From the IMG/VR virus record IMGVR_UViG_3300030106_004142, positions 1 through 32,028 of that record: 32,028 nt of DNA. One strand, 5' to 3'. The notes below the pieces were generated by a model that worked only from the letters and a program-made list of their open reading frames with translations, was not told the DNA's origin and ran no database searches. Position 1 is the first letter of the stretch. The number at the start of each line of letters is the position of its first letter. Both the position numbers and the translations under genes were made by a program. Positions 1 through 19,679 of this stretch are shown piece after piece. The stretch is from a virus.

Positions 1-1457
1 ATTTCTTGTGCGCGTTTTAAGATGTCTTGTATTTCACTCTCGAACATATATTCGACATCACTGGTGTAAACGCTATCTAGAGCTTTGCCCTTAAAAACAG
101 GCGTTGCTTCATCTGACAAAGTAATTACGCTGCCGTCGTTAAATTCATAAGTCTTGGCTACGCCAGCTTGAGTGGTTTCAACGGCGTTATCATCAAGCAT
201 TTTGATAAAGAAATCATAATCAGGGTCGCCTGAATTTATTTGCAAAAGACCAGTGTCACCAAAAACGCCTTCTTTAAATCCTATGTCTTGAGCAAGCGCA
301 CCAGCCACATCGTTTGGGTCATCTGGTATTGATGTCGGCAGACCCTGTTTACGATTACCAACAGTTTCACGATAAAACTTGGCTATATCCTCACTGTCAG
401 TGAAATACAGCCCATAACCATATGCCTGAGCGCCCTCGCCAGTGCCAATCATCTCCAGCCGGAACTCATCAAAGTCCGCGCCAGAGCCATGAAACGCTAT
501 GATGCCAGGCTCAGTCTCAGTCGGTAGAACCACCGAAACAGGGTTCTCAGCAGTCGGCGGCTCAAAGTTGCCAGTCTCAAAATACCGTGCCTGAGCCTGT
601 GCCAGCGCATCACCCATTTGCTGATTAGGGTCAACCTTGGCAACATCAGCTAACGACGGCACTTCTTCTAAATCACGCACGACGACTGCGGGGAAACTGC
701 TTACACCCAGTTCATTGAGCGCCGCTAATCGGTGCGCCCCCTCTAAAACATAGTAACCCTCTTTATCCTGAACCACGATCAGCGGATTGATTTCTTGGCT
801 TTCCTTGATTTGAGAAGCCAATTCTTCTACTCGCCTGAAATCGTCTGACGAATAAAACAAATTCTCCTTTTGGGGGTAAGGAATATCCGTCATTGGGATG
901 TCTTGGATATTCGGCACAATTTCATAGTCGTTCAAAGACGCAGAAATCGAACTGAAGTTAGGAACATCCTCCCTTACCGCTAGGCCGCCAAACGGCTTTG
1001 CGGCATCAGCCGCAACTTCACCAGCCTGGCCAGCAACCCTGGCAGCCCTCGGTGCCTTTAAAGTGGTGCCTATAAGCGCAAGTGGCGGGATAATCGTACC
1101 GCCAGCCATCATCACATCACCAGCACCACCCAACGCCTGTAATCCAGCATCAAGGTAGTTGCCTTGAGTGATGTTCTGACCAAAGCTGGGCAGGAACTCG
1201 CCTGGCTGTGCCGGATCAGGAGCAAATCCCATGATGTCCGTCACACCAGCTCCAGGCGCAAACAAACTAGCAGTAGCACCCGTCGCATAAGCCGGCATCG
1301 CCATGTCGCTGAACCGCGTAGGCTCAGCCATGTCCTGCATCGACGGCCTAATGCGACCAGAGAAAAACCGACTGTCGCTGAACGGGTCGTCCCGCGCATC
1401 CGACATTAATCGCTGCGCCATCATGCGACGCGCAAAGCCCTGTGGCCTTTCTGCCAT
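1..1457 (-). CDS. ParB-like / ADP-ribosyltransferase-like multidomain phage protein (3' end cut by window edge)
   Basis: The reading frame is open from the ATG at 1457 down to base 3, so at least 485 residues are present and the C-terminus lies outside the window. Residues 1 to about 150 closely match the N-terminus of the next gene upstream (shared MAE...GFARRMMAQRLM start and a Gly/Ala-rich hydrophobic stretch). Residues about 195-265 look like a ParB/sulfiredoxin-type domain with NPLIVVQ followed by LEGAHRLAAL, the GxxR-type nucleotide-binding motif. From about residue 320 the pattern FHGSGADFDEF, IGTGEGAQAYGYGLYF resembles ADP-ribosyltransferase domains of phage polyvalent proteins. Such proteins are often thought to be packaged and injected to modify host targets; that role is inferred here. 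Its ATG overlaps the upstream stop as TAATG, so translation is probably coupled. Confidence 0.75.
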   Translation of the reverse strand, partial: MAERPQGFARRMMAQRLMSDARDDPFSDSRFFSGRIRPSMQDMAEPTRFSDMAMPAYATGATASLFAPGAGVTDIMGFAPDPAQPGEFLPSFGQNITQGNYLDAGLQALGGAGDVMMAGGTIIPPLALIGTTLKAPRAARVAGQAGEVAADAAKPFGGLAVREDVPNFSSISASLNDYEIVPNIQDIPMTDIPYPQKENLFYSSDDFRRVEELASQIKESQEINPLIVVQDKEGYYVLEGAHRLAALNELGVSSFPAVVVRDLEEVPSLADVAKVDPNQQMGDALAQAQARYFETGNFEPPTAENPVSVVLPTETEPGIIAFHGSGADFDEFRLEMIGTGEGAQAYGYGLYFTDSEDIAKFYRETVGNRKQGLPTSIPDDPNDVAGALAQDIGFKEGVFGDTGLLQINSGDPDYDFFIKMLDDNAVETTQAGVAKTYEFNDGSVITLSDEATPVFKGKALDSVYTSDVEYMFESEIQDILKRAQE

Positions 1458-2386
1458 TACTGCGCCGCAGGCTTTGCTGCGCTTTCTGAATAGTCAGCCA
1501 CATCAATGCCGAAATCTTCTTTAATGGCTATTGGCCCAGATTCTATAAAATCTTCCACAATCAGTTTTTTATACAAATCTCCAGCGTTTGTATCAATGTA
1601 TTCATATTGCACTGGAAATTCTCCTTTGGCTTCAATCTGCTTCAAATCGCCGAGCACAAGTTCTAAATCTTCAAAATCTGGACTGCCTTCAAGACCGTCA
1701 TCTGCAAGGTCTAAAAGTTTGTTGTCAATTTTTTCCATTAAGGCGTTTAAAATTTTGCCGTCAGGAATCAGCCCTTTGTCCAAAGACTTCCCTAAAGCAC
1801 TTGTGCCTCTCAATACATTTGCTGCTTCAGCTTTGTCCAATTTTAACAACTTTGCAATTTCATCCGTTTTCAACGCCACAGGAGCAGCAGCCATGCCAAG
1901 AATAAGATTTCGGCGCGTTTTGTCAATTTCCACGGCATCAGCAGCAACCCTAGCTGCCCTTGGTGATTTTAAAGCAGCGCCTAATAACGCAACAGGCGGC
2001 ACAAATGGGGCAACAGCTAAAGCAACATCGCCAGCAACGCCCAACGTCTGCAGCCCAGCATCGAGGTAGTTGCCGGCAGATATGTTCTCGCCAAAGCTGG
2101 GCAAGAACTCACCCCGATTGAACGGATCAGGCGCATAGCCAAACACATCAGCAACGCCAGCCCCAGGGGCAAACAAGGTGCCAGTAGCTGCCGTGCCATA
2201 CGCTACATCAGCCAAGTTCGCACCCTCGCGGGCCAGCGAAGCATCTACAGGGTCAGGCAGCTCCCGCACGAACTGATCCGGCGTAGAACCAGCATTGAAG
2301 AAGCGACTGCCGCTGAACGGATCGTCGCGCCTCTCTGTCATCAAGCGCTGCGCCATCATGCGCCGGGCGAAACCTTGCTCTGCCAT
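1457..2386 (-). CDS. Paralogue of the left-edge protein, unknown C-terminal domain
   Basis: This 309-residue protein shares its first ~150 residues with the downstream gene. Both have the same opening, a DPFNRGEFLPSFGENIS-like segment, a hydrophobic Ala/Gly/Val stretch around residues 105-135, then SPRAARVA. The C-terminal half differs entirely: no ParB or ADP-ribosyltransferase motifs, only a helical, acidic region with many Leu/Asp residues and an Ala/Pro-rich end. I do not recognise that half. The start ATG overlaps the preceding stop (TAATG) and its own stop overlaps the next start the same way, so the pair is translated together. The shared N-terminus may be a packaging or membrane-association module carrying variable payloads; this is inference. 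Confidence 0.8.
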   Translation of the reverse strand: MAEQGFARRMMAQRLMTERRDDPFSGSRFFNAGSTPDQFVRELPDPVDASLAREGANLADVAYGTAATGTLFAPGAGVADVFGYAPDPFNRGEFLPSFGENISAGNYLDAGLQTLGVAGDVALAVAPFVPPVALLGAALKSPRAARVAADAVEIDKTRRNLILGMAAAPVALKTDEIAKLLKLDKAEAANVLRGTSALGKSLDKGLIPDGKILNALMEKIDNKLLDLADDGLEGSPDFEDLELVLGDLKQIEAKGEFPVQYEYIDTNAGDLYKKLIVEDFIESGPIAIKEDFGIDVADYSESAAKPAAQ

Positions 2387-2844
2387 TACTGTGCCGCCCT
2401 ACCGAAATGCCGCTCCATAAATTGCAAAGCGGCACCACTGTTCACAAAACCAGGTTCGCAAAAAGCCTCTGGCTCACTCCACTCATCCCTAGTGGGCCGA
2501 GAACGCATCATCTTGCGATACTCAGCAACATTGTCAGCACGCCAGACCCAACCAACAGCACGCATGAGGCAATACTGGTCGTTGGTGATCCCGAGATGTG
2601 ACAAACGACCCAAAGAGTTGACCCAAACGCTCTGCAAACGCATCTCGCCGCATCGAGCCACAACAGCGTCAATGTTCTCCTGCGTGCAGTAACGCCTGTC
2701 CCTCGACAGCATGGATGAACCAGCGCCGTCCAAAAACGCCTGCCTGCCGCTACCGTCAAAGGGCGCAAGGTCAATAATGCGAGGACCAGTGTGCAACCTG
2801 AGAAACCTGTTTTTTATGGAAGCGCGCTTGTTCATATAACGCAT
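2386..2844 (-). CDS. Hypothetical protein
   Basis: A 152-residue protein I cannot assign. It is basic at the N-terminus (MRYMNKRASIKNRF), has a scattered set of Cys and Trp residues (YCTQENI, DQYCLMRAVGWVW), and ends in an acidic segment followed by MERHFGR. A second in-frame ATG lies three codons in (2835) and neither has an obvious ribosome site, so the start is uncertain by 9 bases. It is the first gene after a 152-base gap and overlaps the next gene (TAATG), placing it at the head of a three-gene set with the two paralogues. Confidence 0.6.
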   Translation of the reverse strand: MRYMNKRASIKNRFLRLHTGPRIIDLAPFDGSGRQAFLDGAGSSMLSRDRRYCTQENIDAVVARCGEMRLQSVWVNSLGRLSHLGITNDQYCLMRAVGWVWRADNVAEYRKMMRSRPTRDEWSEPEAFCEPGFVNSGAALQFMERHFGRAAQ

Positions 2845-2996
2845 ACGTCGCCGCGCAAGCCGGCCCGGCGGGGTCAGGCCCAGGGGGCCATATCGTGCGA
2901 ATGTCGCATAACGTTAATTATGGAGATGGTATACCCTGCATAAACAATGGCTTAGCACTGCAGCGCAGGCCATGCGCCAAAAATGTCGCTGTCAGA
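2845..2996 (-). promoter_or_regulatory. Intergenic region with inverted repeats and a weak leftward promoter candidate
   Basis: No gene was found in these 152 bases. They hold GGCCC-AGG-GGGCC (2877-2889) and TGCGA-ATG-TCGCA (2896-2908). A minus-strand CATAAT (2922-2917) could be a -10 box, with TTGTTT (2947-2942) as a poor -35 at a long 19-base spacing. It lies between the stop of the terminase-small-like gene and the start of the paralogue set, so a regulatory role is plausible but unproven. Confidence 0.3.
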
Positions 2997-3617
2997 CTAG
3001 GATTCGCCCTCGATTACGACGCCTGCTGTCGCGTCTGCGCTATTCCGCTCAATGTTGATCTGGACGTTGACAGCGCCGCCCTTTGAGCTGTCGCTGCCAA
3101 AGCTATCCCTTTGAGTTCGTTCAAGAAACCAGCTGTCTGCACGCCAGTCTCGCTCTCCGGCTTGGCCGATGCGTCGCACCCTGAGAGCCACAGCGGCGCT
3201 TTCTGCGGCGCGTACCTCACTTGCAAATGCCGCGTCGTCTGCTATCCATCGATGCAGCGTTGCCTCATGCACGCCAACGACTTGCGCCGCGTGCTTCTTT
3301 GGCACGCCATCCTTGAGAAGCTCTATAACTCCAGCGCGTTTATCGCCAGCAACTAACTGTGTCGATGTTGGTTGCACCTTGGCAACCTCTTGATTGGTTG
3401 CATCTGGTTGCATGGTTGCAGGTTGCAACCCCCTGCGCTGCCGTTTGATTGCAACCGTTAGCGGCTTGTCGCTAATCCATCCCTCACGGTGGCATCGTTT
3501 CTGTATAGCCTGCCGTGAGACGCTGTAATCCTTGGAAACTGCGTTAAAGCTCTCGCCTGCCTGGATGCGTTGCTCTATCTCAGCCCAATCGACTTGGGCT
3601 GGCTGATACTTTCGCAT
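2997..3617 (-). CDS. terS: Terminase small subunit-like HTH protein
   Basis: A 206-residue protein if begun at the ATG at 3617 (MRKYQPAQVDW). The frame is open further upstream, but that extension does not look coding. Residues ~10-45 form one HTH (FNAVSKDYSVSRQAIQKRC). A second HTH follows near residue 115 (AAQVVGVHEATLHRWIADD), and then AESAAVALRVRRI, W and WFLERTQRDSF. This order (HTH, W...D..F, A-rich helix, WxLER) is typical of phage small terminase subunits that recognise the packaging site. The large subunit is at the opposite edge of the window, so the two are adjacent only if the genome is circular or permuted. A general DNA-binding protein is the alternative. Confidence 0.65.
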   Translation of the reverse strand: MRKYQPAQVDWAEIEQRIQAGESFNAVSKDYSVSRQAIQKRCHREGWISDKPLTVAIKRQRRGLQPATMQPDATNQEVAKVQPTSTQLVAGDKRAGVIELLKDGVPKKHAAQVVGVHEATLHRWIADDAAFASEVRAAESAAVALRVRRIGQAGERDWRADSWFLERTQRDSFGSDSSKGGAVNVQINIERNSADATAGVVIEGES

Positions 3618-3712
3618 TATGGGAACCTTGGTTACACGCAACCACATATGGTTGCAGTCTATCAGAACGATACCAGATTTAGAGACACTTGCAACCACCT
3701 TATCGAAAAAGA

Positions 3713-4096
3713 TCAATCGAGCCTGTAATGCAGCTCTATGAGAGCGTGCCGATAGTTGCGTTTGACGATACGCGGATCGTGTAGCCCTAGCATGATCGCC
3801 AGCTTCTTCCATGCTGGCCCTCGGGCCCGAAACGCAGCGCTATGCGCTACAGCCCAGACCAGGCGACGGTCATCTTCTGGCATGATGCTTGTGAGGCGCA
3901 TGGCCTCATCAAAGTCACTGATCTGCTTTGAGGTCGGGTGCAGTCTTGTTGGCCCGATCTGTGTCCAGCCGTAGCCGTGCCAGTCCAGCGGGTAGTCTGG
4001 CCATGAGCTGAGCTTTTGCTTGCGGGTTGCAGGCGGCAGCCTTCTGTCAGTCTCTGCTGCCTGGAGAAACAGGTCGTGTAGCTGTTCTACATTCAT
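3713..4096 (-). CDS. Small phage protein resembling DUF6362
   Basis: The ATG at 4096 (MNVEQLHDLFLQAAETDRRL) gives 127 residues. The frame extends upstream, but that part lies inside the preceding gene. The C-terminal half (PEDDRRLVWAVAHS, PAWKKLAIMLGLHDPRIVKRNYRHAL) has the helical, HTH-like pattern I associate with DUF6362 proteins of alphaproteobacterial phages, whose function is unknown. It sits between a basic hypothetical protein, with which it overlaps by about 50 bases, and the terminase-small-like gene. A role in DNA binding near packaging is possible but inferred. Confidence 0.65.
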   Translation of the reverse strand: MNVEQLHDLFLQAAETDRRLPPATRKQKLSSWPDYPLDWHGYGWTQIGPTRLHPTSKQISDFDEAMRLTSIMPEDDRRLVWAVAHSAAFRARGPAWKKLAIMLGLHDPRIVKRNYRHALIELHYRLD

Positions 4097-4373
4097 AGAA
4101 ATACGTCTCCCAGTGATCGACAAACTTGCGCTGTTGGAATGGCCCCATGTGCCAGTAGGCTTTCCGAATCTCTTTGAAGCGGTCGAGGCTGTGCATTTCC
4201 TGCAGTAAGGCAAAGACCTTTTGCTGCCTGACCAGGAATTCATTCTTCTTCCGTCTATCGACAGCAGTGCGATAAGGGTGTTTCGCCCTTTTCGCTACGC
4301 GGCCTATAAGCTGTTGAACTCGTTGCCTTTGTAACTTTTCACTTGACGGATTTTCGGCCCTCGATAAAATCAT
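4047..4373 (-). CDS. Hypothetical basic protein
   Basis: A 108-residue Arg/Lys-rich protein of unknown function. The first 50 residues are strongly basic (VQQLIGRVAKRAKHPYRTAV), followed by a helical region containing LLQEMHSLDRFKEIRKAYWH and an aromatic stretch DHWETYFYE. A GAGGAG ribosome site lies 12 bases before the ATG at 4373. The last ~50 bases overlap the next gene, so the true C-terminus or the next start may need adjusting. It is the first gene after the 4374-4526 gap. Confidence 0.6.
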   Translation of the reverse strand: MILSRAENPSSEKLQRQRVQQLIGRVAKRAKHPYRTAVDRRKKNEFLVRQQKVFALLQEMHSLDRFKEIRKAYWHMGPFQQRKFVDHWETYFYECRTATRPVSPGSRD

Positions 4374-4526
4374 GGCTTAAGCAATCTCCTCGCTTACGCG
4401 CTCTCTAAAGCGCTTTTTTTAAACAAGATTTTTGGTTCTTAGATGGCTTTGGTGATGGCCTTTGGTTAGTGTCATTAACAACGCCATATATAGCTGTGGG
4501 GCGGGTTTGCGTTCCGAATCGTAGCA
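4374..4526. other. Intergenic gap with a small hairpin and T-run
   Basis: No gene was seen. On the plus strand GCGCT-CTCTAA-AGCGC (4398-4413) is followed by seven T (4414-4420), which looks like a short intrinsic terminator for rightward, antisense transcription. On the minus strand an AT-rich TATATA lies near 4486-4491 without a convincing -35. With only a 5-bp stem, the terminator reading is tentative. Confidence 0.3.
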
Positions 4527-4790
4527 TCATGCAGCGCTCAGAACTTTTAGTCGCGGCACGAGCTGATCTGCCAATTGCTCTCTTAAATAGTCCAGCGTCA
4601 GCGTCCCAGGCTGTCCCTGTAGGTAGCTCGGCAGCGCTAGGTGCGCGGCATCAATGCTTGGGAAATACTTTGACTGATGGCGGCGCACTGGCACGCCGTA
4701 CAGCTCGGCTATGTAGAACAGGCCGCGCCCTTCCACGATGAGCCGGCTGATCTCACGATCTGCATCTGCCAGTGCCTCATCCCTAGTCAT
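4527..4790 (-). CDS. Hypothetical protein coupled to the DpdA-like gene
   Basis: The ATG at 4790 overlaps the stop of the DpdA-like gene as ATGA and gives 87 residues. A longer frame to 4826 would begin with low-complexity Ala/Gly residues and is less likely. The protein starts with an acidic helix (MTRDEALADADREISRLI) followed by GRGLFYIAELYGVPVRRHQSKYFP, which could be a small HTH-like fold, and ends in a Leu-rich helix. I do not recognise it. Strict coupling to the transglycosylase gene makes it a candidate accessory factor for base modification; this is inferred from position only. Confidence 0.6.
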   Translation of the reverse strand: MTRDEALADADREISRLIVEGRGLFYIAELYGVPVRRHQSKYFPSIDAAHLALPSYLQGQPGTLTLDYLREQLADQLVPRLKVLSAA

Positions 4791-5467
4791 AGCGCCAGCT
4801 CCTGCAGTTCCGGCTGTTGCTGCCAACGGAGAGGCGTCTGCACAGCGTCAAGCCGGCGTGCCATCGTTTCAGCGTCCACTTTCCTGTCTTTGAAGTTTCT
4901 GGCCACGTTCACGCTGTCAGCACTCGCAAACGGCCAGCGCTTGCCAGTGAGGGCAAGGCCGCGCAGCATATGAATGTGCGGCAAAAACCGATGTGCCTTT
5001 GCAAGCGCGTTAAAAGCCTTGTCTGCGCGGAATGACCACGCCTCGCTTTCAACTTGCCAATATTTTCCAGAACTGCCGAAACAGACCTTGGGATAGCGGT
5101 CACAAAGAAAAAGCAAATAATCTATTGGCAGACCCATGTGCCACACAGGCGCTGCCAGCTCGTTTGGATAGGGCCACTCAGCCAGCAAGGCTTTCTGTTG
5201 CTCTACGGGGCCGTCAATGACATCAGGAATCACAGCCCAGTGGGGGTGGCCTAAACGTGGCTCCAACCAGGCGTAGTAAGCGTTGCGGTCGAACTGAACG
5301 CCCTGCCTGAAGCTGGTGAAGGCACCGTTGTCCCACATGATGCTTTGGCCAATCTGCAAGCAGATGTCGGCATCGTCTGGCCTCGCAAACGACACGCAGA
5401 AGTGCTTGCCGGCCATACCGTAAAGCTCTTTGCGTGGCGTCAGCGGGGTGCCGTGATAATGAATCAC
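4787..5467 (-). CDS. dpdA: DpdA-like DNA 7-deazaguanine transglycosylase
   Basis: This 226-residue protein matches the phage DpdA type related to tRNA-guanine transglycosylase. That family exchanges guanine in DNA for a 7-deazaguanine such as preQ0. Visible motifs, in order, are MWDNGAF with Asp46, WAVIPDVIDG with Asp82 and Asp85, VCFGSSGKYW around residue 130, and HMLRGLAL then FASADSVNVARN around 166-191. I chose the GTG at 5467: it overlaps the preceding stop as GTGA and has GGAAGG seven bases upstream. The five-codon longer version would need a TTG. The neighbours, a YhhQ-type transporter upstream and a coupled small gene downstream, support a base-modification cassette. No queuosine-pathway biosynthesis gene is in the window, so the base is probably scavenged. 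Which 7-deazaguanine is used cannot be told from sequence. Confidence 0.88.
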   Translation of the reverse strand: MIHYHGTPLTPRKELYGMAGKHFCVSFARPDDADICLQIGQSIMWDNGAFTSFRQGVQFDRNAYYAWLEPRLGHPHWAVIPDVIDGPVEQQKALLAEWPYPNELAAPVWHMGLPIDYLLFLCDRYPKVCFGSSGKYWQVESEAWSFRADKAFNALAKAHRFLPHIHMLRGLALTGKRWPFASADSVNVARNFKDRKVDAETMARRLDAVQTPLRWQQQPELQELAL

Positions 5468-5721
5468 TGACTTGCCTTCCAAGACGACTCTATTGTGATG
5501 CCCTTGTGGGTGCCTTTCAACCGACCGGATGCGTGCGGAAATTTTGAGGCAAACTGTTCTGCCAGATATTCTTGCAAAGCAGGCTTACCCTTGTTGAACG
5601 CACAATCCACGATCTCCTCTGCCATCGTCGTGGTTTCTGTTTCTAAGGTCAGCTCGTAATCGATTTCTTCACAATCGATCGGGCAAGCAGAAATGAAGCT
5701 GAGTTTATATTTGTGCTTCAT
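5464..5721 (-). CDS. Hypothetical protein between transporter and DpdA genes
   Basis: An 85-residue protein of unknown function. It has alternating hydrophobic segments suggesting beta strands at the N-terminus (MKHKYKLSFISACPIDC), an acidic region (DYELTLETETT), a helix, and a basic GRLKGTHKGITIESSW end. It overlaps the transporter gene by 17 bases at its start and the DpdA-like gene by GTGA at its end, so the three are co-translated. I considered a QueD-like or FolE-like enzyme, but the His/Cys metal and catalytic motifs are absent. A partner in delivering or modifying the base is possible but unsupported beyond position. Confidence 0.65.
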   Translation of the reverse strand: MKHKYKLSFISACPIDCEEIDYELTLETETTTMAEEIVDCAFNKGKPALQEYLAEQFASKFPHASGRLKGTHKGITIESSWKASQ

Positions 5722-6193
5722 GCTTGCGCCTCTGTAGCAAGTACATCACAACAAAAGCACCGACCATTTTACTCAGGGTCATCAGCACAACGCCACCAAT
5801 GCTGAAGTAACCGATCATGGCTAGGAAGACAGCGCTATCAAGCGGGGTGCCAACCGCCGACGAAATCACAATGCGCTGGTGCAGAGGCCGTTTTGACCAG
5901 GTGTAAACCAGCCAGTCGGCAGTTTCACTAATTAAGAAGGCAACTACTGATGCGACCGCCACAAACGGATCTGCTAAGTAGTAGCTCAACAATGCGCCGA
6001 TCATCATTGCCCCGATCACTCGATGGCCTATTTCACGCTGGCTGAAGTCCCGCAGCACGAAAATCAGGCCAACCAACAGCGACATTGGTGGCCACATTTC
6101 ACCCAAAAGCGGCATCGGCGGCACATAAACAAAGCCGATATTCACAAATAAGATGCACGCCACATATGCAATAGAATACTTGTATGCGTTCAT
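5705..6193 (-). CDS. yhhQ: YhhQ/VUT-family queuosine precursor transporter
   Basis: A 162-residue integral membrane protein with about six hydrophobic segments. It carries the family signatures LRDFSQREIGHR, SETADWLVYTW and GTPLDSAVF. Members of this family (DUF165/PF02592) take up 7-cyano-7-deazaguanine or related queuosine precursors across the inner membrane. It is shorter than E. coli YhhQ (about 220 residues) but retains the core motifs. The ATG at 6193 has GGGAG about ten bases upstream. Sitting two genes ahead of the DpdA-like enzyme, it most likely supplies preQ0 for phage DNA modification when the host cannot make enough. Confidence 0.85.
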   Translation of the reverse strand: MNAYKYSIAYVACILFVNIGFVYVPPMPLLGEMWPPMSLLVGLIFVLRDFSQREIGHRVIGAMMIGALLSYYLADPFVAVASVVAFLISETADWLVYTWSKRPLHQRIVISSAVGTPLDSAVFLAMIGYFSIGGVVLMTLSKMVGAFVVMYLLQRRKHEAQI

Positions 6194-6420
6194 TTTTCTT
6201 CTCCCTCTGTTAATTCGACATAGCCCTTGCCCTCACAAACCGGACACTGGCCAAGCCCCGTAGTCAGGTCGCCGCCGCGCATATAATCCGGCACTGCGAT
6301 CTCGACCTCACACTCGCCCTGAGCATCGCAATGCTCACATTCCAGCACCTCGCGCCATTCACCTGGCACCGTTGAGATGCGAATCTTCCGCGCCAGCATG
6401 GTGCTGAACCCTCTAGCCAT
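6190..6420 (-). CDS. Small zinc-ribbon protein
   Basis: A 76-residue protein with two CxxC knuckles, CEHC near residue 28 and CPVCEGKGY near residue 59, the second in the CxxCxGxG form of DnaJ-type zinc fingers. The fold is probably a single zinc ribbon; the partner is unknown. An AAGGCGG ribosome site precedes the ATG at 6420. The start lies inside the end of the methyltransferase gene and the end overlaps the transporter start by ATGA. Similar small zinc-ribbon proteins are common in phage early operons. An internal ATG seven codons in is an alternative start. Confidence 0.7.
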   Translation of the reverse strand: MARGFSTMLARKIRISTVPGEWREVLECEHCDAQGECEVEIAVPDYMRGGDLTTGLGQCPVCEGKGYVELTEGEEK

Positions 6421-7294
6421 TTTCGACCGCCTTGATTGTCAGGCCGATCTGCATAGCGATTTGCGGCACGATGGCATTGCCCAGCCCCTTAAGCCGTGCT
6501 GCCCTCTGCTTCACGCCGGTTGCTACTCTTGGGATGTCTCTAGGTTCGTCCAACCAGGTGGATAGCCCATCAGCCACTCCACCCATGCTGGATTCAACGA
6601 CCCCTGCGCCCATTGCTGCGGCGTCGTGCCTCTTATATCTGGATGGTTGCCTAGCATCGCTTGCATCTTGCCGTCTGTCGTCCCCGCCGCGTCCTCGTTG
6701 GCTGTCGGTGTCGGCCACATCCGCACTGCGCCGCCAAGTGTCGTCCCACGTTTGGTTCCGATTGTCTTGCCTTGCCCCCGCACTTGCGAGTTGTCCTGCG
6801 TTGTCGCTGTTGGCCACAATCCAAACTCTGTGTCGTCTGTGCGGGGCATCGAGGGCCACAGCACCAAGGCAAAATGTCTGGACTTCGTAACCGGCTTTAT
6901 CTGCCAAGTCAGATAGCACCGTGTTGAGGCCCAGACTGAGGTGTCCAGCCACATTTTCGCAAACAACCCAACTCGGCCTTTTTGCTTCAATAATGGTAAA
7001 TATTTCCGGCCAGATGTGACGGTCATCTTCCTCGCCTCGTCGGACCCCGGCCTGACTAAATGGTTGGCATGGGTATCCGGCTGTGAGGATGTCGCAGTCT
7101 GGAACAAGTCGCCCTGCATCTTTAGCCAACTCCTTCACGTCTTCTGTTATCGGCACGTCGGGCCAATGCTTGGCCAGCACCTTGCGGCTCCATTCCTCTA
7201 CGTCACAGAACAGCACCGGGCGGGACAGGCCAGCCCACTGAAAGCCCAACGCAAAGCCGCCGATGCCTGAACACAGATCAACGTGAGCCAGCAT
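6413..7294 (-). CDS. C5 cytosine-specific DNA methyltransferase
   Basis: This gene methylates cytosine at C5 using SAM. In the 293-residue form started at the ATG at 7294 (GGGGGA five bases upstream), motif I is DLCSGIGGFALG, motif IV GYPCQPFSQAG with catalytic Cys76, motif VI CENVAG, motif VIII RRHRVWIVA (about 153-161), and motif X GLGNAIVPQIA near the end. The stretch between motifs VIII and X, about 110 residues, is hydrophilic and Asp/Arg-rich and should hold target recognition. The same DNA carries a long open +1 frame described separately. No cognate restriction endonuclease was seen, so this is an orphan phage enzyme, probably protective or regulatory. It overlaps the nuclease gene upstream and the zinc-ribbon gene downstream. 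Confidence 0.93.
   Translation of the reverse strand: MLAHVDLCSGIGGFALGFQWAGLSRPVLFCDVEEWSRKVLAKHWPDVPITEDVKELAKDAGRLVPDCDILTAGYPCQPFSQAGVRRGEEDDRHIWPEIFTIIEAKRPSWVVCENVAGHLSLGLNTVLSDLADKAGYEVQTFCLGAVALDAPHRRHRVWIVANSDNAGQLASAGARQDNRNQTWDDTWRRSADVADTDSQRGRGGDDRRQDASDARQPSRYKRHDAAAMGAGVVESSMGGVADGLSTWLDEPRDIPRVATGVKQRAARLKGLGNAIVPQIAMQIGLTIKAVENG
6523..7119 (-). CDS. Nested +1-frame ORF inside the methyltransferase gene
   Basis: A 198-residue frame lies wholly within the methyltransferase gene, shifted +1. Its ATG at 7119 has an AAGGAG ribosome site ten bases upstream. The translated product looks like a protein type I recall from phage and prophage annotations near C5 methyltransferases. Its features are TSGRKY (35-40), CYLTW (68-72), MPRTDDTEFGLWPT (91-104), MWPTPTANED (134-143) and a C-terminal GSLNPAWVEWLMGYPPGWT (173-191). 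The last resembles methyltransferase motif IX (FP..W). It is either a true overlapping gene whose product helps the methyltransferase or an old frame retained by dual coding. Function is unknown. Confidence 0.55.
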   Translation of the reverse strand: MQGDLFQTATSSQPDTHANHLVRPGSDEARKMTVTSGRKYLPLLKQKGRVGLFAKMWLDTSVWASTRCYLTWQIKPVTKSRHFALVLWPSMPRTDDTEFGLWPTATTQDNSQVRGQGKTIGTKRGTTLGGAVRMWPTPTANEDAAGTTDGKMQAMLGNHPDIRGTTPQQWAQGSLNPAWVEWLMGYPPGWTNLETSQE

Positions 7295-7619
7295 CGCTAT
7301 CCCCCACTTGCCCACGCAAAAGCATACAGAAGTCATCAAGATCTAGCACCACCAGCTCAGGCTTGCGGTCAGCCTTCAGCACCAGCGCATCAGCGCCGTC
7401 CATCCAGTCATAGAGCTGCTTGAATCCGTTGGCGCGGCATTTGACTTCAAGCTCCCACTGGTCAACAGGCAGCGGGTCACCCTTGCGAATCACCAAATCG
7501 TTTTTTATGGCGGCACCGCCTGATAGCGGGACGCGGAAACAATCGAGGCCATTGGCTTCCAGCTTCTTGCGGATGCTGTTCTCAGCTCTGTAACCTTTAT
7601 CGCGTGATGCTTTACCCAT
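7278..7619 (-). CDS. Hjc-like PD-(D/E)XK nuclease (Holliday junction resolvase type)
   Basis: A small protein of 113 residues from the ATG at 7619 (MGKASRDKGYRAEN); an ATG six bases earlier is the alternative. It has the archaeal Hjc-like arrangement: a conserved Glu in RAENSIRKKLE, RVPLSGGA, a catalytic Asp in NDLVI, and WELEVKCR carrying the E-x-K signature, followed by a helix (KQLYDWMDGADALVL). This suggests a nuclease that resolves branched DNA, fitting the recombination genes on the other strand. It overlaps the HTH gene upstream and the methyltransferase downstream. A VRR-NUC-type nuclease is an alternative family. Confidence 0.8.
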   Translation of the reverse strand: MGKASRDKGYRAENSIRKKLEANGLDCFRVPLSGGAAIKNDLVIRKGDPLPVDQWELEVKCRANGFKQLYDWMDGADALVLKADRKPELVVLDLDDFCMLLRGQVGDSDAGSR

Positions 7620-7830
7620 CGGCATACGCTGGAAAGAAATCGTTTGGCATAACCTTTCCCCCAGTCAGATTGATAATACGCTGCATATAATCAGGGTTTG
7701 GCACTGATCGCCTGGCGTCTCCCAGGGGGTGGCACCACCTAGTTACAGTGATCGTCTGTGGGACGCCCAACTGACGTGCCAGCAACGATTTCGACCACCC
7801 TTGTTCTTTTCGCCATTGTTCTAAGGTCAT
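7612..7830 (-). CDS. Small HTH transcriptional regulator
   Basis: A 72-residue protein whose N-terminal half reads as a Cro/CI-type HTH (EQWRKEQGWSKSLLARQLGVPQTITVTRW), with the recognition helix near residues 24-34. It is the first gene of the leftward operon and is divergent from the recombination operon. The predicted -10 box (7842-7837) leaves about six bases before the ATG at 7830, so the transcript may be leaderless, as for lambda cI made from PRM. It probably binds the inverted repeat at 7842-7856. Whether it acts as Cro-like, repressor or activator cannot be decided; it has no visible C-terminal dimerisation or cleavage domain. Confidence 0.75.
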   Translation of the reverse strand: MTLEQWRKEQGWSKSLLARQLGVPQTITVTRWCHPLGDARRSVPNPDYMQRIINLTGGKVMPNDFFPAYADG

Positions 7831-7905
7831 TTGCGAACCATAACGTGCTTGACGTTCAGTGACAAGGTAAGATAGTAACGATGTGCGATTACCGAGGAAT
7901 TTGTC
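7831..7905. promoter_or_regulatory. Overlapping divergent promoters with operator candidate
   Basis: Rightward promoter: TTGACG (7849-7854), 16-base spacer, GATAGT (7871-7876), with GAGGA before the ATG at 7906. Leftward promoter: minus-strand TTGTCA (7865-7860), 17-base spacer, TATGGT (7842-7837), then six bases to the HTH start. A perfect inverted repeat, AACGT-GCTTG-ACGTT (7842-7856), covers the rightward -35 and touches the leftward -10, so one bound regulator could influence both directions. Confidence 0.6.
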
Positions 7906-8826
7906 ATGTCTTTTTCATTTCTACCCGCCTGGGCTACCGAGAAACATTATTTTCACCATTCAAACCCAGAATCTCGCCCACTGTGCAAAACTTTGTACGA
8001 CAAATGCGTAGTTCGCCCACTTCTCGACCGTTGTTGGAAGATTTTGAAAGGCGAAATTGTTGGCGATAAAAATTATGCGAAGCAACTGATAGACATTTAT
8101 CAAAATGACAACGCCAACATGGCGGCTGGCCGGATTACTCAAGATATCCTTGATAACCATCTTGTAGAAGACATGACGTTTGATGAAGCCTTGCGACATG
8201 GCATGGCCGCAATGGATGAATATCAACCGCGCACATGGGATAATGGCAAAGATGCCGACAAAGCCAAAATCAACCGTGATGAAATGGGAGATGTAGCGCA
8301 ACACGCTGTTGAGGGTGTGCTAGCGGCCCATCGTCAAATCGGAGTGAACCGAATCGTCGGCGAAAGTGAAGTGTTGACACGCTTGTCAGGATTGGAATTG
8401 CCTTATTCTGGCTTCCCTGATTTTAGTGGACAAGTAGAACTTAAGACAAAATGGTCACGCTTTAGTGCAAAAGCCAAGTCAGGCAAGTCTGCCGCCAGTC
8501 TTCCGCAACAACCAGATTGGTCGCACGTTTGCCAAGTCGCTGGCTATTGGTCTGCTACCGGCAAGCCACAGCTAATTGTATATGCAAATGCCTCTGGGCA
8601 TCGTGTCTTCAGCGCTGAAAACTGCGACCGTTTGACAACAGAGGGGCTTCAAAGCGCTCTCAACCAAATCACCGCAAAATGCCAAGTGCGCGAAAACTTA
8701 TTAAGAAAAGCAGAATCCGTTGAGGAACTGCTGACGTTGGTCGAACCTGATTTCGGCCATTTCTGGGCTTGGGATGTGCGTCCTGAAGTCCTCAAACAAG
8801 CAAAAACAGCATGGGGGTTCAGATGA
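7906..8826 (+). CDS. PD-(D/E)XK exonuclease-like protein
   Basis: This 306-residue protein has the RecB/Cas4-type PD-(D/E)XK layout: E152-E155 region (GESEV), FPDFSG with Asp172, ELK with Glu178 and Lys180, and the QVAGYW motif (Gln210, Tyr214) typical of this nuclease branch. It probably degrades one DNA strand to give single-stranded substrate for the ERF protein two genes on, like exonuclease-annealase pairs in other phages. The start ATG follows a good GAGGA site and a clear promoter. The stop overlaps the next start as ATGA. The N-terminal 100 residues are helical and unassigned. Confidence 0.8.
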   Translation: MSFSFLPAWATEKHYFHHSNPESRPLCKTLYDKCVVRPLLDRCWKILKGEIVGDKNYAKQLIDIYQNDNANMAAGRITQDILDNHLVEDMTFDEALRHGMAAMDEYQPRTWDNGKDADKAKINRDEMGDVAQHAVEGVLAAHRQIGVNRIVGESEVLTRLSGLELPYSGFPDFSGQVELKTKWSRFSAKAKSGKSAASLPQQPDWSHVCQVAGYWSATGKPQLIVYANASGHRVFSAENCDRLTTEGLQSALNQITAKCQVRENLLRKAESVEELLTLVEPDFGHFWAWDVRPEVLKQAKTAWGFR

Positions 8827-8990
8827 ACAGAAACCTTATATGGCTTCACGTTGATGAAGCTGGCCGTCCTTTGCGTCCGTACAGCCGTCTGCGGGAATTT
8901 TTGCGGATCATTGGCGTCGTAGCAATGGCCTTGTTTGTACTATTTAGTCTGTGGTGCGCCGTGGCGCTCACTGCGGTCATCATGCCATGA
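8823..8990 (+). CDS. Small single-pass membrane protein
   Basis: A 55-residue ORF linked at both ends by ATGA overlaps (8823-8826 and 8987-8990). It has a polar N-terminus (MNRNLIWLHVDEAGRPL), a basic stretch (RPYSRLREFLR) and one hydrophobic segment of about 22 residues (IIGVVAMALFVLFSLWCAVAL) close to the C-terminus. The charge pattern suggests the N-terminus stays in the cytoplasm. I do not recognise a family. Its place inside a recombination operon is unexpected; superinfection exclusion or host-membrane effects are guesses. Confidence 0.7.
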   Translation: MNRNLIWLHVDEAGRPLRPYSRLREFLRIIGVVAMALFVLFSLWCAVALTAVIMP

Positions 8991-9328
8991 ACGCGCAAGA
9001 AACCTTGTTTGACGCTCTCAGCGTACCTCGCAACGACCGTGAAGCACGGTTCTTAAAATTCCACCGCGAGAACCCAGAGGTGTATCAGTTTTGGGATCGG
9101 TTTACCCGCGAGGCTTTGGCCAAGGGCCATGACCGAATTGGATCACAGATGATAATCGAGCGGATAAGGTGGGAGACGAACATCGTGCTGCATGACCAGC
9201 GCCCTGACGGTGAGCCACTGAAGATCAATGACCATCACAAGCCGTATTACGCCAGGCTGTGGATGGAAAACAATCCGCAGCACAAAGGCGTATTCAACAC
9301 ACGGGCGGTCGAGGGAGATGTCCAGTGA
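8987..9328 (+). CDS. Conserved phage hypothetical protein
   Basis: A 113-residue protein starting at the ATG overlapping the previous stop. A longer version from 8951 would overlap the membrane-protein gene and is unlikely. The pattern FLKFHRENPEVYQFW, IIERIRWETNI, KINDHHKPYYARLWM, then NPQHKGVFNTR is one I recognise from small phage proteins near replication or recombination genes; its function is unknown. It ends in a GTGA overlap with the ERF gene, suggesting both products are needed at similar levels. Confidence 0.75.
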   Translation: MNAQETLFDALSVPRNDREARFLKFHRENPEVYQFWDRFTREALAKGHDRIGSQMIIERIRWETNIVLHDQRPDGEPLKINDHHKPYYARLWMENNPQHKGVFNTRAVEGDVQ

Positions 9329-9981
9329 CTGAAAGCAGCAAAATCAATACTGCCATAGCAAGTGCAATGAAAGAGGTGCAAAAGCTGCCCAAAGATGACC
9401 GCAATGAACATGGGAAATACAGCTTTGCTTCAATTGACAAATTTCTTGATGCGTGCCGGCCGATATGCGCAGCGCACGGCTTACATCCAAACATTGACGG
9501 CGTAGCTTCAGACACATTCATGGCTGGCAGCAATAAGCTCTGGGGGAAATTTAGCTACCGCATCTCAATGCACCATGAGTCGGGTGAAAGCACTGAGCCA
9601 TCTGGCATGGATGTCATGCTGCCTCTGACCGGCGCGCAAACCAGCGGCTCAGCACAAAGTTATGCGCTGAAGCAATATCTGCGCGGTTTGCTGATGATAT
9701 CTACTGGTGAAAAAGACGATCCTGATTTCAATCAGCCAGCATCCAAAGACGGTGTTGACGCATCACCAGTGCCGACTTTGGAACAGCCGATGAGCGTGAA
9801 AAGCGCTGAACAAATGGAAGCAGAAATAAAGAAACAAACGACTTTGGTCGGGCTGAACACCTGGCAGCAAGAAAATCTCAATTGCTTGTCGGTGCTGCAA
9901 CAGAGCAATTACGACCAATGGCAACGTCTTTACAATGTGTGGCTAGAGAGAGAGAAGGAGATCCGAAATGGCAGCACCTGA
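9325..9981 (+). CDS. erf: ERF-family single-strand annealing protein
   Basis: This 218-residue protein has the ERF pattern. Residues ~27-53 read GKYSFASIDKFLDACRPICAAHGL, and residues ~110-135 hold the conserved TSGSAQSYALKQYLRG followed by LMISTGEKDDPD. ERF proteins (type P22 Erf) anneal complementary single strands and promote phage DNA recombination or circularisation. The GTG start at 9325 overlaps the previous stop (GTGA) and has GGGAG upstream. The longer ATG frame from 9259 lies inside the preceding gene. The C-terminal ~75 residues are polar and helical, as in other members. Works with the upstream nuclease and probably with the next protein. Confidence 0.9.
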   Translation: MTESSKINTAIASAMKEVQKLPKDDRNEHGKYSFASIDKFLDACRPICAAHGLHPNIDGVASDTFMAGSNKLWGKFSYRISMHHESGESTEPSGMDVMLPLTGAQTSGSAQSYALKQYLRGLLMISTGEKDDPDFNQPASKDGVDASPVPTLEQPMSVKSAEQMEAEIKKQTTLVGLNTWQQENLNCLSVLQQSNYDQWQRLYNVWLEREKEIRNGST

Positions 9982-10384
9982 CTTCAAAAACGGCAAGCTG
10001 CAGCTCATAAGCGGGTTCAGTGTATCTGATCGCGTTAGCATGAGCTGTTGGCTTAATATCACTGACCCAGCTCTGCTGGAAGCAGTGATGGCGCACTACC
10101 ATGCCACTGGTCAACGCCCTGGCTTCTCGATGCAGAAGAAGGTCAACGACCGTTATGAGGACGTGACTAAGGCCAAGATGTTCAATGACGTGCTTGATCC
10201 GTATCAGAGCCAGCAGCCGGCCCAGGAACAGCAAGCGCAGCCAGGTTTCGCGCCACAGCAGCCGGCACCGCAGGGCTTTGCCCCTCAGCAGCCAGCGCCG
10301 CAACAGCCAGCCCAGGGCGGCTTTGCGCCTCAGGAACCAGCCCCGCAAGGTGGCTTTAGCTATCAGCAGGCCAAGAATGGCTAG
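9968..10384 (+). CDS. Putative ssDNA-binding protein with Pro/Gln-rich tail
   Basis: A 138-residue protein with a compact N-terminal ~75 residues (KLQLISGFSVSDRVSMSCWL...) and a long low-complexity tail built from repeats such as PQQPAPQGFA and QQPAPQ. The organisation, an ordered domain plus a flexible Gln/Pro/Gly tail, directly after ERF, recalls single-strand-binding proteins. The OB fold cannot be confirmed by eye and the usual acidic C-terminal tip is absent (it ends YQQAKNG). AAGGAG seven bases before the ATG supports the start. It overlaps ERF by 14 bases and the next gene by 8. Confidence 0.6.
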   Translation: MAAPDFKNGKLQLISGFSVSDRVSMSCWLNITDPALLEAVMAHYHATGQRPGFSMQKKVNDRYEDVTKAKMFNDVLDPYQSQQPAQEQQAQPGFAPQQPAPQGFAPQQPAPQQPAQGGFAPQEPAPQGGFSYQQAKNG

Positions 10385-10601
10385 GCAAGCGCTGTTGCCG
10401 TTATCTGAGGCGTGCGTGCTTCTTCTTGGTCAGTATAACGAGAATGAGCGGCGCAGAGTAAAGCGTTGGATTGAGCAAGGCGTCATTCAGGCAGTCAAGG
10501 ATGGCGCAAAGTTCTACATCCCGCGTGCAGAAATCAAACGATTAGCAGGAGAACATCATGGGCAGAAAGTGGACGCCGGAACAGCGTGCTCGTCAGAGTG
10601 A
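10377..10601 (+). CDS. Excisionase-like / MerR-type HTH protein
   Basis: A 74-residue protein from the ATG at 10377. The frame is open further upstream but lies within the previous gene. LPLSEACVLL, then RRRVKRWIEQGVIQAVKDGAKFYIPRAEIKRL is the winged-helix pattern of AlpA, excisionase and helix-turn-helix-17 proteins: helix, turn, a W-[IL] recognition helix, a small wing, then an arginine-rich helix. It could be an excisionase, but no integrase or att site was seen in the window, so a transcription regulator is equally likely. It overlaps neighbours on both sides. Confidence 0.7.
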   Translation: MARQALLPLSEACVLLLGQYNENERRRVKRWIEQGVIQAVKDGAKFYIPRAEIKRLAGEHHGQKVDAGTACSSE

Positions 10602-10686
10602 GGCAATCAAGGCTTACTGGCGCAAAAAGAAAACGCCGCCAACGATCTGGCAGCGTTTGTTAAATTTTGTAGTTGGGGCGCGGTAG
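10558..10686 (+). CDS. Small basic hypothetical protein
   Basis: A 42-residue ORF with AGGAG seven bases before its ATG. The sequence begins MGRKWTPEQRARQSEAIKAYW, a short basic motif that recurs in small phage proteins, followed by KKK and a Trp/Leu-rich end. The final codon runs into the terminator stem. It overlaps the HTH gene by 44 bases in another frame. Function is unknown; a nucleic-acid-binding peptide is possible. Confidence 0.6.
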   Translation: MGRKWTPEQRARQSEAIKAYWRKKKTPPTIWQRLLNFVVGAR

Positions 10687-10700
10687 CGCCCCTTCTTTTA
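10675..10700 (+). terminator. Intrinsic terminator of the rightward operon
   Basis: A perfect 7-bp stem GGGGCGC / GCGCCCC (10675-10681 and 10686-10692) with a GGTA loop is followed by TTCTTTTA. It starts just inside the last codons of the 42-residue gene and ends the plus-strand operon where the minus-strand late genes converge. Confidence 0.85.
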
Positions 10701-10789
10701 CGACCAGTGTAACGCAGTTCCATTACCCCAATACCTTTTGTCTTTCAACGACAAGCATTAAACACAAAAAAGTATGGTTTGCGGTGCGG
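10701..10789. other. Convergent intergenic gap
   Basis: Between the rightward terminator and the last late gene (stop at 10790) no gene is seen. The minus strand has a six-T run at about 10771-10766 beyond the late-operon stop but I find no matching hairpin, so a leftward terminator is not established. Confidence 0.4.
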
Positions 10790-11080
10790 TTATGCTTTTT
10801 TGGTTTTCTTCTTCGCGCCGCCCTTCAATAAATCGGCATCTGCCTTGCGCGCCCCGCCCTTGCCACTCACAAACGAATTCACACGGCCTCTTGACCAGCT
10901 CGTCATGTTTGTGCCTGGTCGACTTCCGCTGGACAAGAAGGCTGCCTTACCACGCTGCAGAACCTTACGAAGAGTTGAAACACTGAACCGGCTTTCGGCT
11001 GCTTTCTTGCGCAGGAAAGCCTCGTCAGAACTACCGCCGCCGCGTTTTTTTGCGGGTCTTTTTTTTGCCTTGGTTGCCAC
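10790..11080 (-). CDS. Lys-rich small phage protein
   Basis: A 96-residue protein starting with a GTG at 11080. Both ends are Lys-rich (MATKAKKRPAKKRGGG; LKGGAKKKTKKA). The middle (STLRKVLQRGKAAFLSSGSRPGTN, then W and GRVNSFVSGKG) matches a pattern I recall from small phage structural-region proteins. The net charge is strongly positive. It overlaps the previous gene by 50 bases and is the last gene of the late operon. Its role is unknown; DNA or virion-lumen association is a guess from charge. Confidence 0.65.
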   Translation of the reverse strand: MATKAKKRPAKKRGGGSSDEAFLRKKAAESRFSVSTLRKVLQRGKAAFLSSGSRPGTNMTSWSRGRVNSFVSGKGGARKADADLLKGGAKKKTKKA

Positions 11081-11249
11081 GAGCCCTATTCACCTTTTTC
11101 AGATCAATTTTTTCACCACGTCGGTAAGCGGCTGCAGTGCGCTTGATCTCTGCAGCCTGCTTCGACGGATTACGAGCCCCTCGAACATACTTGGACGGTA
11201 GCCCCGTCTTTTTGTCCTTGGGAACGCGCTTGAACTTACGCCGGGCCAT
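11031..11249 (-). CDS. Small basic phage protein
   Basis: A 72-residue protein, about 40 percent Arg/Lys. KDKKTGLPSKYVRGARNPSKQAAEIKRT followed by AAYRRGEKIDLKKV is a pattern seen in conserved small proteins of marine phages; the end is an RKKTRKKTRRR-type basic tail. It starts directly after the preceding stop (TAA then ATG). Function is unknown. Confidence 0.7.
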   Translation of the reverse strand: MARRKFKRVPKDKKTGLPSKYVRGARNPSKQAAEIKRTAAAYRRGEKIDLKKVNRARGNQGKKKTRKKTRRR

Positions 11250-11369
11250 TTAGTAGCTCATGCGCCCCATTCGACCGCCGCGACGCATTGCCGGCTTCTT
11301 CTTCTTTGCTGCCGCACGCCTTGGCTTGCGCTTAGGCATGACCTTTTTCATTTTCATCATTCCAGGCAT
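11250..11369 (-). CDS. Very small Arg/Lys/Met-rich protein
   Basis: The ATG at 11369 has GTGAGG five to ten bases upstream and gives 39 residues beginning MPGMMKMKKVMPKRKPRR, then KKKKPAMRRGGRMGRMSY. A longer frame to 11435 would lie over the preceding gene and lacks a ribosome site. It is nearly all Lys, Arg, Met, Gly and Pro and is probably disordered. It sits in a run of similar tiny basic genes. Confidence 0.6.
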   Translation of the reverse strand: MPGMMKMKKVMPKRKPRRAAAKKKKPAMRRGGRMGRMSY

Positions 11370-11376
11370 ATCAACC

Positions 11377-11535
11377 TCACTTTCCGTGTTTACGCATCGC
11401 CGCTCGATGCGATTCTTTAAATGTTTTTCCGGCACGCATTAACCGTCTCATTTCGGCCATATGCTTGGCAGTGTGATGCACCTTGTGCCGCTTGAGTGCC
11501 GCCTCTTGGCGTGCCGTGAGCTTTTTCATCTTCAT
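11377..11535 (-). CDS. Small basic protein with HHTAKHM motif
   Basis: A 52-residue ORF whose ATG overlaps the preceding stop (TGATG at 11533-11537). It reads MKMKKLTARQEAALKRH, then HHTAKHMAEMRRLM and GKTFKESHRAAMRKHGK. The LTxRQ...HHTxKHM...M...GKTF..SH..AM pattern recurs in small phage proteins, which makes it a real gene despite its size. It is His-, Lys- and Met-rich and predicted helical. Function is unknown. Confidence 0.75.
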   Translation of the reverse strand: MKMKKLTARQEAALKRHKVHHTAKHMAEMRRLMRAGKTFKESHRAAMRKHGK

Positions 11536-11804
11536 CAGCAGTCCCACTTTCTCAGCGCCTTGTTGATCCGGCTGTTAGGATCACGCGCTGTCTTTTTGCT
11601 GGTGAGCTTCTTCTTCATGCCCAGCATCCTGGCGCAGAAGGACTTGCGACGAGCTGCGGCCTTTGGGCTACGCTTCGCCTGCTTTCTTGAAACGGGCGCT
11701 TTGAGGTTCATGCCCTGGCGGCGTGCAGATGCCCTGCCCTTGCGGTTCAGGCCACCAGATGGAGACTTGCCAGCCGACCGCTGCCAAGTGGGCGTCCTAG
11801 CCAT
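11535..11804 (-). CDS. Small basic phage protein, SPSGGLNRKGRAS family
   Basis: From the ATG at 11804 this is 89 residues. The longer frame to 11927 lies inside the lysozyme gene. The pattern WQRSAGKSPSGGLNRKGRAS, GMNLKAPV, RRKSFCARMLGMKKKL and DPNSRINKALRKWDC is one I recognise from conserved phage proteins of unknown function found near virion or lysis genes. It contains two Cys and many Lys/Arg. It overlaps the lysozyme stop by eight bases. Confidence 0.75.
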   Translation of the reverse strand: MARTPTWQRSAGKSPSGGLNRKGRASARRQGMNLKAPVSRKQAKRSPKAAARRKSFCARMLGMKKKLTSKKTARDPNSRINKALRKWDC

Positions 11805-12249
11805 CTGCGACGGCTCTGATACGGTCGCTGATGCGATAGGCGCGGTGCGGTGTTTGCTCTTTGGCCCAGCGGCTGTCAAGGATTTCGTCGGCCAGAGCTG
11901 ACCAGTTGCCTTCGTTGGCGTAAGCAATAGATCGTTTGAATTTGCTCAAAGATGGGCGCCCTAATTGAAAGGCCATATTTGCCAGGCACAATTTTATTTC
12001 TTCCGGCATGTTGTCAAAGTCTTTGAAGATCATGCGGCAGTCGTCAATCGTTACCGCAATGTCACTTTCAAACGCTTCGTTGATTCGGTCGTCGCTAACC
12101 TCTGTGCCGACTGGCAACGGCCACTCAGGATCATCAAGAGTTACGAGATGGCCCACGCCCATAGTTTTGTGCCCGAGTGAGCATAAATACAAAGAGTTTA
12201 CGCGCCCCTCGTCGCTTGCAATTTGTTCGCGTAGCAACTCAATATTCAT
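11797..12249 (-). CDS. T4-type lysozyme (GH24 endolysin) with E-C-T triad
   Basis: A 150-residue muramidase that would cleave the glycan backbone of peptidoglycan at lysis. The N-terminal catalytic region aligns with T4 lysozyme: Glu14 in SDEGR, then Cys23 where T4 has Asp20, then Thr29 before MGVGHL. The spacing is E-8-C-5-T, matching the family's E-8-D-5-T. Cys at the Asp position is compatible with activity in this family, as known for T4 D20C. No signal peptide is visible, so it needs the holin upstream. Its ATG overlaps the preceding small gene (ATGA). Confidence 0.85.
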   Translation of the reverse strand: MNIELLREQIASDEGRVNSLYLCSLGHKTMGVGHLVTLDDPEWPLPVGTEVSDDRINEAFESDIAVTIDDCRMIFKDFDNMPEEIKLCLANMAFQLGRPSLSKFKRSIAYANEGNWSALADEILDSRWAKEQTPHRAYRISDRIRAVADG

Positions 12250-12377
12250 GCGCGCCTCGTCTTTTTCTTTTTTTTCTTCTTGTTGAGAGCTGTGAAGTCA
12301 GCGCGAGTGATCTTGTTGCGCGGCTTGGCAGCGGCAGCAAGGCGCTTCTGTTTTGGGGAATACTTGGAAAATGGCAT
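12246..12377 (-). CDS. Very small basic protein between holin and lysozyme
   Basis: A 43-residue ORF between the holin-like and lysozyme genes, joined by TGATG at its start and ATGA at its end. It begins MPFSKYSPKQKRLAAAAKPR, continues NKITRADFTAL and ends in seven Lys then TRRA. The SPKQK...P.NKIT.ADF.AL pattern is shared by other small phage proteins, so it is likely a real gene. Function is unknown. Confidence 0.7.
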   Translation of the reverse strand: MPFSKYSPKQKRLAAAAKPRNKITRADFTALNKKKKKKKTRRA

Positions 12378-15053: not shown

Positions 15054-15058
15054 TCACA

Positions 15059-16315: not shown

Positions 16316-16318
16316 TTT

Positions 16319-19677: not shown

Positions 19678-19679
19678 TA

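Follow-up and report, generated by a model that had tools for sequence, protein, structure and literature searches.

A YhhQ-type transporter, a miniature QueF-Like protein and a DpdA-like transglycosylase are encoded side by side in the window analyzed here, the 32,028-base viral contig of IMG/VR record IMGVR_UViG_3300030106_004142. It is probable (roughly 0.68) that this trio constitutes a minimal, import-fed cassette for 7-deazaguanine modification of DNA, with a QueF-Like-type (QueF-L-like) finishing step. The identities of the three genes were established by profile and fold comparisons, their linkage is conserved, biosynthesis genes are absent from the record, and in sister cassettes the transporter is replaced by QueD, QueE and QueC.

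Genomic context of the cassette

The contig carries portal, terminase, major head protein and tail genes and represents a fragment, as open reading frames cross both of its ends. A megablast search of positions 1-20000 against cultured phages returned no match. A relative of 34,313 bp (G087), 68-84% identical to the window in aligned blocks and circularly permuted, spans the end-to-end join of the window; alignment arithmetic indicates that about 1.4 kb are absent from the window, comprising nothing beyond the remaining parts of two genes, those for the terminase large subunit and a 776-aa protein. The cassette is part of a string of overlapping minus-strand genes:

7625-7278, minus strand: RusA/PDDEXK-like gene, in the same overlapping string
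6413..7339, minus strand: C5-cytosine DNA methyltransferase (PF00145, E 9.5e-36)
6190..6420, minus strand: 76-aa cysteine-rich (zinc-ribbon-like) protein, weak family matches only
5705..6193, minus strand: YhhQ/Vut_1-type transporter, 162 aa (PF02592, phrog_4899)
5464..5721, minus strand: miniature QueF-Like (T-fold) protein, 85 aa (phrog_37496, 'unknown function'; PDB profile; fold)
4787..5467, minus strand: DpdA/TGT-fold transglycosylase, 226 aa from GTG at 5467 (phrog_887; fold)

The three genes of the trio have overlapping frames, the transporter gene shares a 4-bp ATGA overlap with the cysteine-rich gene, and the whole string looks translationally coupled. The longest DpdA open reading frame reaches a TTG at 5482; the GTG at 5467 is the more likely start, with which the gene overlaps the preceding 85-aa gene by 4 bp (GTGA). 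A preliminary description of this DNA had reported a DpdA-like gene and a YhhQ-type transporter separated by one small coupled gene, and all three were found in place. The C5-methyltransferase is a second DNA-modification activity in the string, outside the core trio. Arrangements of this type are kept in well over 100 loci and are therefore not due to chance.

Domains of FolE, QueD and QueC were not found in the 32-kb record, and viral QueC, QueD and QueE seeds (the seed being the means by which QueE was searched) had no relative in the window or in the 34.3-kb G087. A hidden preQ0 pathway is very unlikely, since G087 shows that the window lacks only some 1.4 kb inside two genes. The earlier observation that no FolE-, QueD-, QueE- or QueC-like gene is visible thus holds for the record and, in the case of QueC, QueD and QueE, extends to the rest of the genome as represented by this relative.

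Transporter and its linkage to DpdA

The putative transporter matched Pfam Vut_1 (PF02592) with 30.1 bits, above the gathering cut-off of 27.2, and phrog_4899 with E 2.7e-37. Its match to the NCBIfam model TIGR00697, 'queuosine precursor transporter' (E 2.4e-6, 27.5 bits), lies under the equivalog cut-off of 50.95. It is placed in the wider YhhQ/Vut_1 family only, and family and linkage together suggest preQ0 as its substrate. Eight residues (R48, D49, S82, E90, D93, D119, S120 and K142) were invariant in 34 relatives.

A YhhQ-family transporter was encoded within 600 bp of DpdA on the same strand in 120 of 136 viral loci, a figure that gives how often DpdA has a transporter partner, as these loci were found via DpdA. 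The linkage amounted to 102 of 145 loci once identical DpdA open reading frames were removed. A search starting from the transporter of the window yielded eight loci, all close relatives and all with DpdA (8/8). The transporters fall into two types, one with and one without a GPCL-type insertion; they lie on either side of DpdA, upstream or downstream, and are scattered over a quick DpdA tree, and the pair therefore seems to have been kept or re-formed through rearrangement. On host chromosomes, relatives of the phage-type YhhQ overlap or adjoin a canonical queC (L193, 420-1788; Microvirga G031 contig 1, near 43712-44937). As judged from sequence, this neighborhood is an independent tie of the phage-type transporter to 7-deazaguanine metabolism.

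Import versus synthesis

The best single case of an exchange between transporter and synthesis genes is provided by locus L142, with the order QueD-QueE-QueC-DpdA, and its sister L138 (support 99 in a quick tree), with the order YhhQ-QueFL-DpdA; the former is predicted to synthesize the base and the latter to import it, with a QueF-L-like gene in addition. Further arrangements were QueE-DpdA-QueD (L044), DpdA-QueD (L132 and L074) and QueD-DpdA (L085 and phage DMCA). In Caulobacter phage DMCA (L180, 3705-4001) a mini QueD (98 aa, LHGH motif) has a one-base overlap with the DpdA gene. QueD or QueE was found beside DpdA in 0 of 102 loci with YhhQ versus 4 of 43 loci without it (Fisher p 0.007), and the exclusion was also seen in viral loci alone (p 0.018); these p-values are indicative, as related loci were counted as independent and four loci carry the result. 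The exclusion does not extend to every phage, given that Seuratvirus-type phages (EC151) have a transporter together with full biosynthesis.

Five loci (L026, L027, L028, L069 and L120) hold YhhQ-QueC-DpdA hybrids, in which the transporter is accompanied by only the last enzyme of preQ0 synthesis, hinting that the imported base might there be CDG. Such pairs of YhhQ with QueC, the maker of preQ0 from CDG, lend weight to an unlikely alternative, according to which the transporter carries another base (queuine, preQ1 or CDG) or acts in export and DpdA is fed by host synthesis. The family-level assignment of the transporter fits this alternative as well; the complete separation of YhhQ from QueD and QueE across the loci argues against a host-fed DpdA.

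The hosts bear on the same question in both directions. Among 29 host genomes with related DpdA genes, a full-length QueC match was present in all 20 without a linked YhhQ and in five of the nine whose prophages have one. The five favor host-fed synthesis; the four of nine lacking the match, versus none of 20, speak against it, a weak contrast as three of the four are MAGs. A general rule that hosts of the cassette lack QueC was dropped in view of the five. Rhizobium subbaraonis has no QueC and encodes QueF and its own YhhQ, a gene set that, on predicted gene content, is the pattern of a preQ0 salvager. Of the earlier proposal that the phage imports its base from host or environment, the import gains indirect support from the separation of YhhQ from QueD/QueE and from the YhhQ-queC pairs of host chromosomes; preQ0 is the likely imported base, and dependence on outside supply is presumed, full-length QueC being present in five of the nine YhhQ-linked hosts.

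A miniature QueF-Like protein

The 85-aa protein had no Pfam or NCBIfam family, and its sole family match was phrog_37496, which is of unknown function and was matched by 26 of 26 scanned members of the mini family. When the family profile was compared with all PDB sequences, the only significant match was QueF-L (5jyx, E 2.1e-5), with the next best at E about 1. The AlphaFold2 model (pLDDT 96.1) matched QueF-L in Foldseek (E 4e-5, probability 1.0) and superposed on it in VIA over 85 of 85 residues (Z 12.4, 1.8 A), with lower scores for GTP cyclohydrolase I (Z 11.4) and QueF (Z 9.2). An hhalign comparison of the mini family with 12 host QueF proteins gave a collinear alignment at E 0.015 and Prob 1.4, and the assignment was settled by the PDB profile and the fold.

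Residues C13, P14, Y22, E35, E51 and H72 were invariant in the aligned relatives, and C13, invariant in 28 sequences, aligns to the nucleophile Cys21 of QueF-L. The column that holds the catalytic Asp in QueF and QueF-L, seven residues downstream of the Cys, is I, V or N in the mini family; the invariant His72 may replace this Asp, and the chemistry may differ. An initial suspicion that the protein is QueF, a reductase, was disfavored by the absence from the mini family of the NADPH motif ESKSxK, which is present in host QueF. With its sequence relation to QueF-L, modelled T-fold and aligned Cys, the protein is classed as a QueF-L-like T-fold protein, and not as an archaeosine synthase because the catalytic Asp is not conserved. 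MED16 gp37 and SEN1_37 were tested as further mini QueF-L proteins and rejected, and DMCA_35 was ruled out, being a mini QueD.

A search from the 85-aa gene alone found DpdA directly adjacent in 40 of 40 viral contigs (L228-L267), a set that includes a few contigs also recovered by the other searches and two, L235 and L264, in which the DpdA frame beside the QueF-L-like gene is broken into two pieces, suggesting decay or sequencing error. Pseudomonas prophages hold the QueF-L-like gene and DpdA without a transporter, and the two genes therefore form a pair in their own right. In the cultured phages with a mini QueF-L (Epa33, Mae-JY30 and RHph_X2_30) it adjoins DpdA in three of three cases, and RHph_X2_30 has YhhQ, mini QueF-L and DpdA together.

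This constant adjacency would also fit a subunit, as would be expected if the same cassette left plain dPreQ0 as its final base and the QueF-L-like protein were a non-catalytic preQ0-binding partner handing the base to DpdA. The QueF Asp missing from the mini family is in line with such a role. Moreover, DpdA and YhhQ can stand alone: 81 YhhQ-linked DpdA loci lack a QueF-L-like gene (YhhQ only or YhhQ-QueC) and 22 have both. Against this reading, the invariant Cys, two Glu and His on a QueF-L scaffold look catalytic, and we regard it as rather improbable.

The DpdA-like transglycosylase

The open reading frame at 4787-5482 (minus strand) matched phrog_887, 'queuine tRNA-ribosyltransferase', with E 3.7e-42, and aligned in hhalign with the DpdA of Pantoea phage MED16 (E 9.1e-39, 39% identity over 201 columns). 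Pfam, NCBIfam and PDB searches with the single sequence or the DpdA profile assigned the protein to no family; the assignment comes from PHROGs and fold comparison. Plain Foldseek of the AlphaFold2 model (pLDDT 86.7) returned nothing significant, its matches being weak ones to generic barrels (best E 0.04), and TGT surfaced solely on realignment, the best VIA-align matches being Cap10 (9ntn, Z 14.5), archaeal TGT (1iq8, Z 14.5) and bacterial TGT (Z 13.7). Residues D51, D87, D189 and H10 (numbered from the TTG start) were invariant in 42 relatives, and their motifs suggest that the three Asp are one-to-one equivalents of TGT D102, D156 and D280. The CXCX2C...H zinc site of TGT and bacterial DpdA is missing from the protein, in which C29 is the sole invariant Cys, and for this reason it was not classed with either. 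The MED16 DpdA sequence likewise has no TGT zinc motif.

Profile and sequence kinship, together with a modelled TGT-type barrel and conserved Asp, identify the protein as a probable phage DpdA. Its sequence supports a transglycosylase of the singleton-DpdA kind, for which insertion into DNA is predicted. A target other than DNA, either a protein, as for Cap10 of type IV CBASS (which has a TGT fold and binds the deazaguanylated N-terminus of a protein; PMC11996544), or tRNA, for instance in counter-defence, finds a point in its favor in the tie of Cap10 for best structural match and appears very improbable given that the scores of archaeal and bacterial TGT differ from that of Cap10 by less than 1 Z unit, that the sequence kin are the singleton-DpdA group with dADG known in MED16 DNA, and that the gene sits in a DNA-modification string with a C5-methyltransferase. 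One contig, L153, carries two different DpdA genes (9998-10684 and 11428-12123) about 700 bases apart.

Proposed mechanism and product

For the import-fed cassette, we infer the substrate, DNA as the target, the order of steps, the product and the benefit as follows. The YhhQ-type transporter would let the infected cell take up preQ0 or a 7-deazaguanine base closely related to it, and the DpdA-type transglycosylase would swap guanines of the phage DNA for it. Cys13 of the mini QueF-L could then attack the preQ0 nitrile and proceed via a thioimide, as QueF-L does on tRNA, converting preQ0 to a derivative: archaeosine (dG+) is the favored one, and dADG or dPreQ1 could take its place. The cassette would probably serve to shield phage DNA from restriction.

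The preference for dG+ derives from QueF-L, which uses ammonium to convert preQ0 in tRNA (PMC5485725). Among phages, the QueF-L homologues of Dp-1 and HVTV-1 yield mainly dPreQ1 and not dG+, and dADG is carried by Salmonella 7-11 and in the DNA of MED16 (PMC8306585), for which reason dPreQ1 and dADG stay possible. If the cassette works, dG+ is, at a rough estimate, the leading candidate with somewhat less than an even chance, dADG is an unlikely second, dPreQ1 and plain dPreQ0 are each a little less probable, and any other product is the least expected. Of the initial prediction of preQ0 or a derivative in phage DNA, the derivative is hence the likelier part, as the small coupled gene is no spacer and appears QueF-L-like, and preQ0 itself the less likely. 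Reported modification levels are low, at about 0.13% of G in MED16 and about 0.02% in 7-11, and dADG seemed of little effect on the enzymes tested against MED16 DNA.

A broader scheme, offered tentatively and on balance doubtful, is that phrog_37496 is an obligate DpdA partner that rewrites imported preQ0 in phage DNA via a Cys-His arrangement unseen in QueF and QueF-L. Gain or loss of this one small gene could then move phages between plain and derivatized 7-deazaguanine in their DNA, and exchange of YhhQ with QueD/QueE/QueC could move them between import and synthesis.

Comparison with known systems

The lack of biosynthesis genes had initially been contrasted with known phage cassettes, which often include them. 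It is not new in kind, as both DpdA-only phages and phage YhhQ were already described by Hutinet 2019 (PMC6884629). The group-3 phages of that study (Salmonella 7-11, Mycobacterium Orion) have DpdA and no preQ0 or G+ synthesis, reliance on host or exogenous preQ0 was proposed, and YhhQ was noted in some phages (PMC6884629). These phages resemble the window in having a DpdA homologue without FolE, QueD, QueE or QueC. YhhQ was there uncorrelated with any group, whereas here it is closely associated with a single DpdA clade and accompanied by a QueF-L-like gene. MED16 likewise has a homologous transglycosylase and no biosynthesis genes, but neither YhhQ nor a mini QueF-L is found among the genes beside its DpdA.

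The QueF-Like protein of Pyrobaculum calidifontis (5jyx/5k0p) shares with the phage protein the T-fold, the nucleophilic Cys and the absence of ESKSxK, and its substrate is a preQ0-bearing nucleic acid (tRNA). It is about 20 residues longer and possesses a general-acid Asp that is missing from the phage family, which differs further in its invariant His72 and in having a DNA-type transglycosylase as gene partner. Phage vB_StuS_MMDA13 combines DpdA with a QueF-L-like protein and is predicted to carry dG+, but unlike the window it encodes its own preQ0 synthesis (FolE, QueD, QueE and QueC). Seuratvirus CAjan, which carries dPreQ0, and EC151 have DpdA and a YhhQ-type preQ0 transporter, a combination resembling that of the window; EC151 has full biosynthesis and no QueF-L named for it, whereas the window has a QueF-L-like gene and no biosynthesis.

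Synthesis-free DpdA, the proposal of salvage, and YhhQ and QueF-L in phages are thus known. The tight transporter-DpdA linkage, the swap of import and synthesis genes and the identity of the phrog_37496 mini-enzyme appear to be new with respect to the literature consulted. The results supply a function hypothesis for an unannotated phage family, phrog_37496, and explain how DNA modification could be possible in phages that do not synthesize preQ0, which would tie phage anti-restriction chemistry to a scarce nutrient from host or environment. The question raised in 2019, what DpdA-only phages do, becomes testable in the cultured phages RHph_X2_30, Epa33 and Mae-JY30.

Additional features of the window

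A 198-aa frame at 6523-7119 (minus strand) is nested within the C5-methyltransferase gene (6413-7339, minus strand), on the same strand and in a different frame. It matched phrog_1008, 'DNA methyltransferase' (E 2e-24), and is present in several relatives at 27-42% protein identity, as in a dual-coded or frameshifted gene. At 1-1457 (minus strand), adjoining the terminase, a large protein with ParB-N and ADP-ribosyltransferase (ART-PolyVal) domains is encoded, perhaps a polyvalent protein that is injected together with the DNA.
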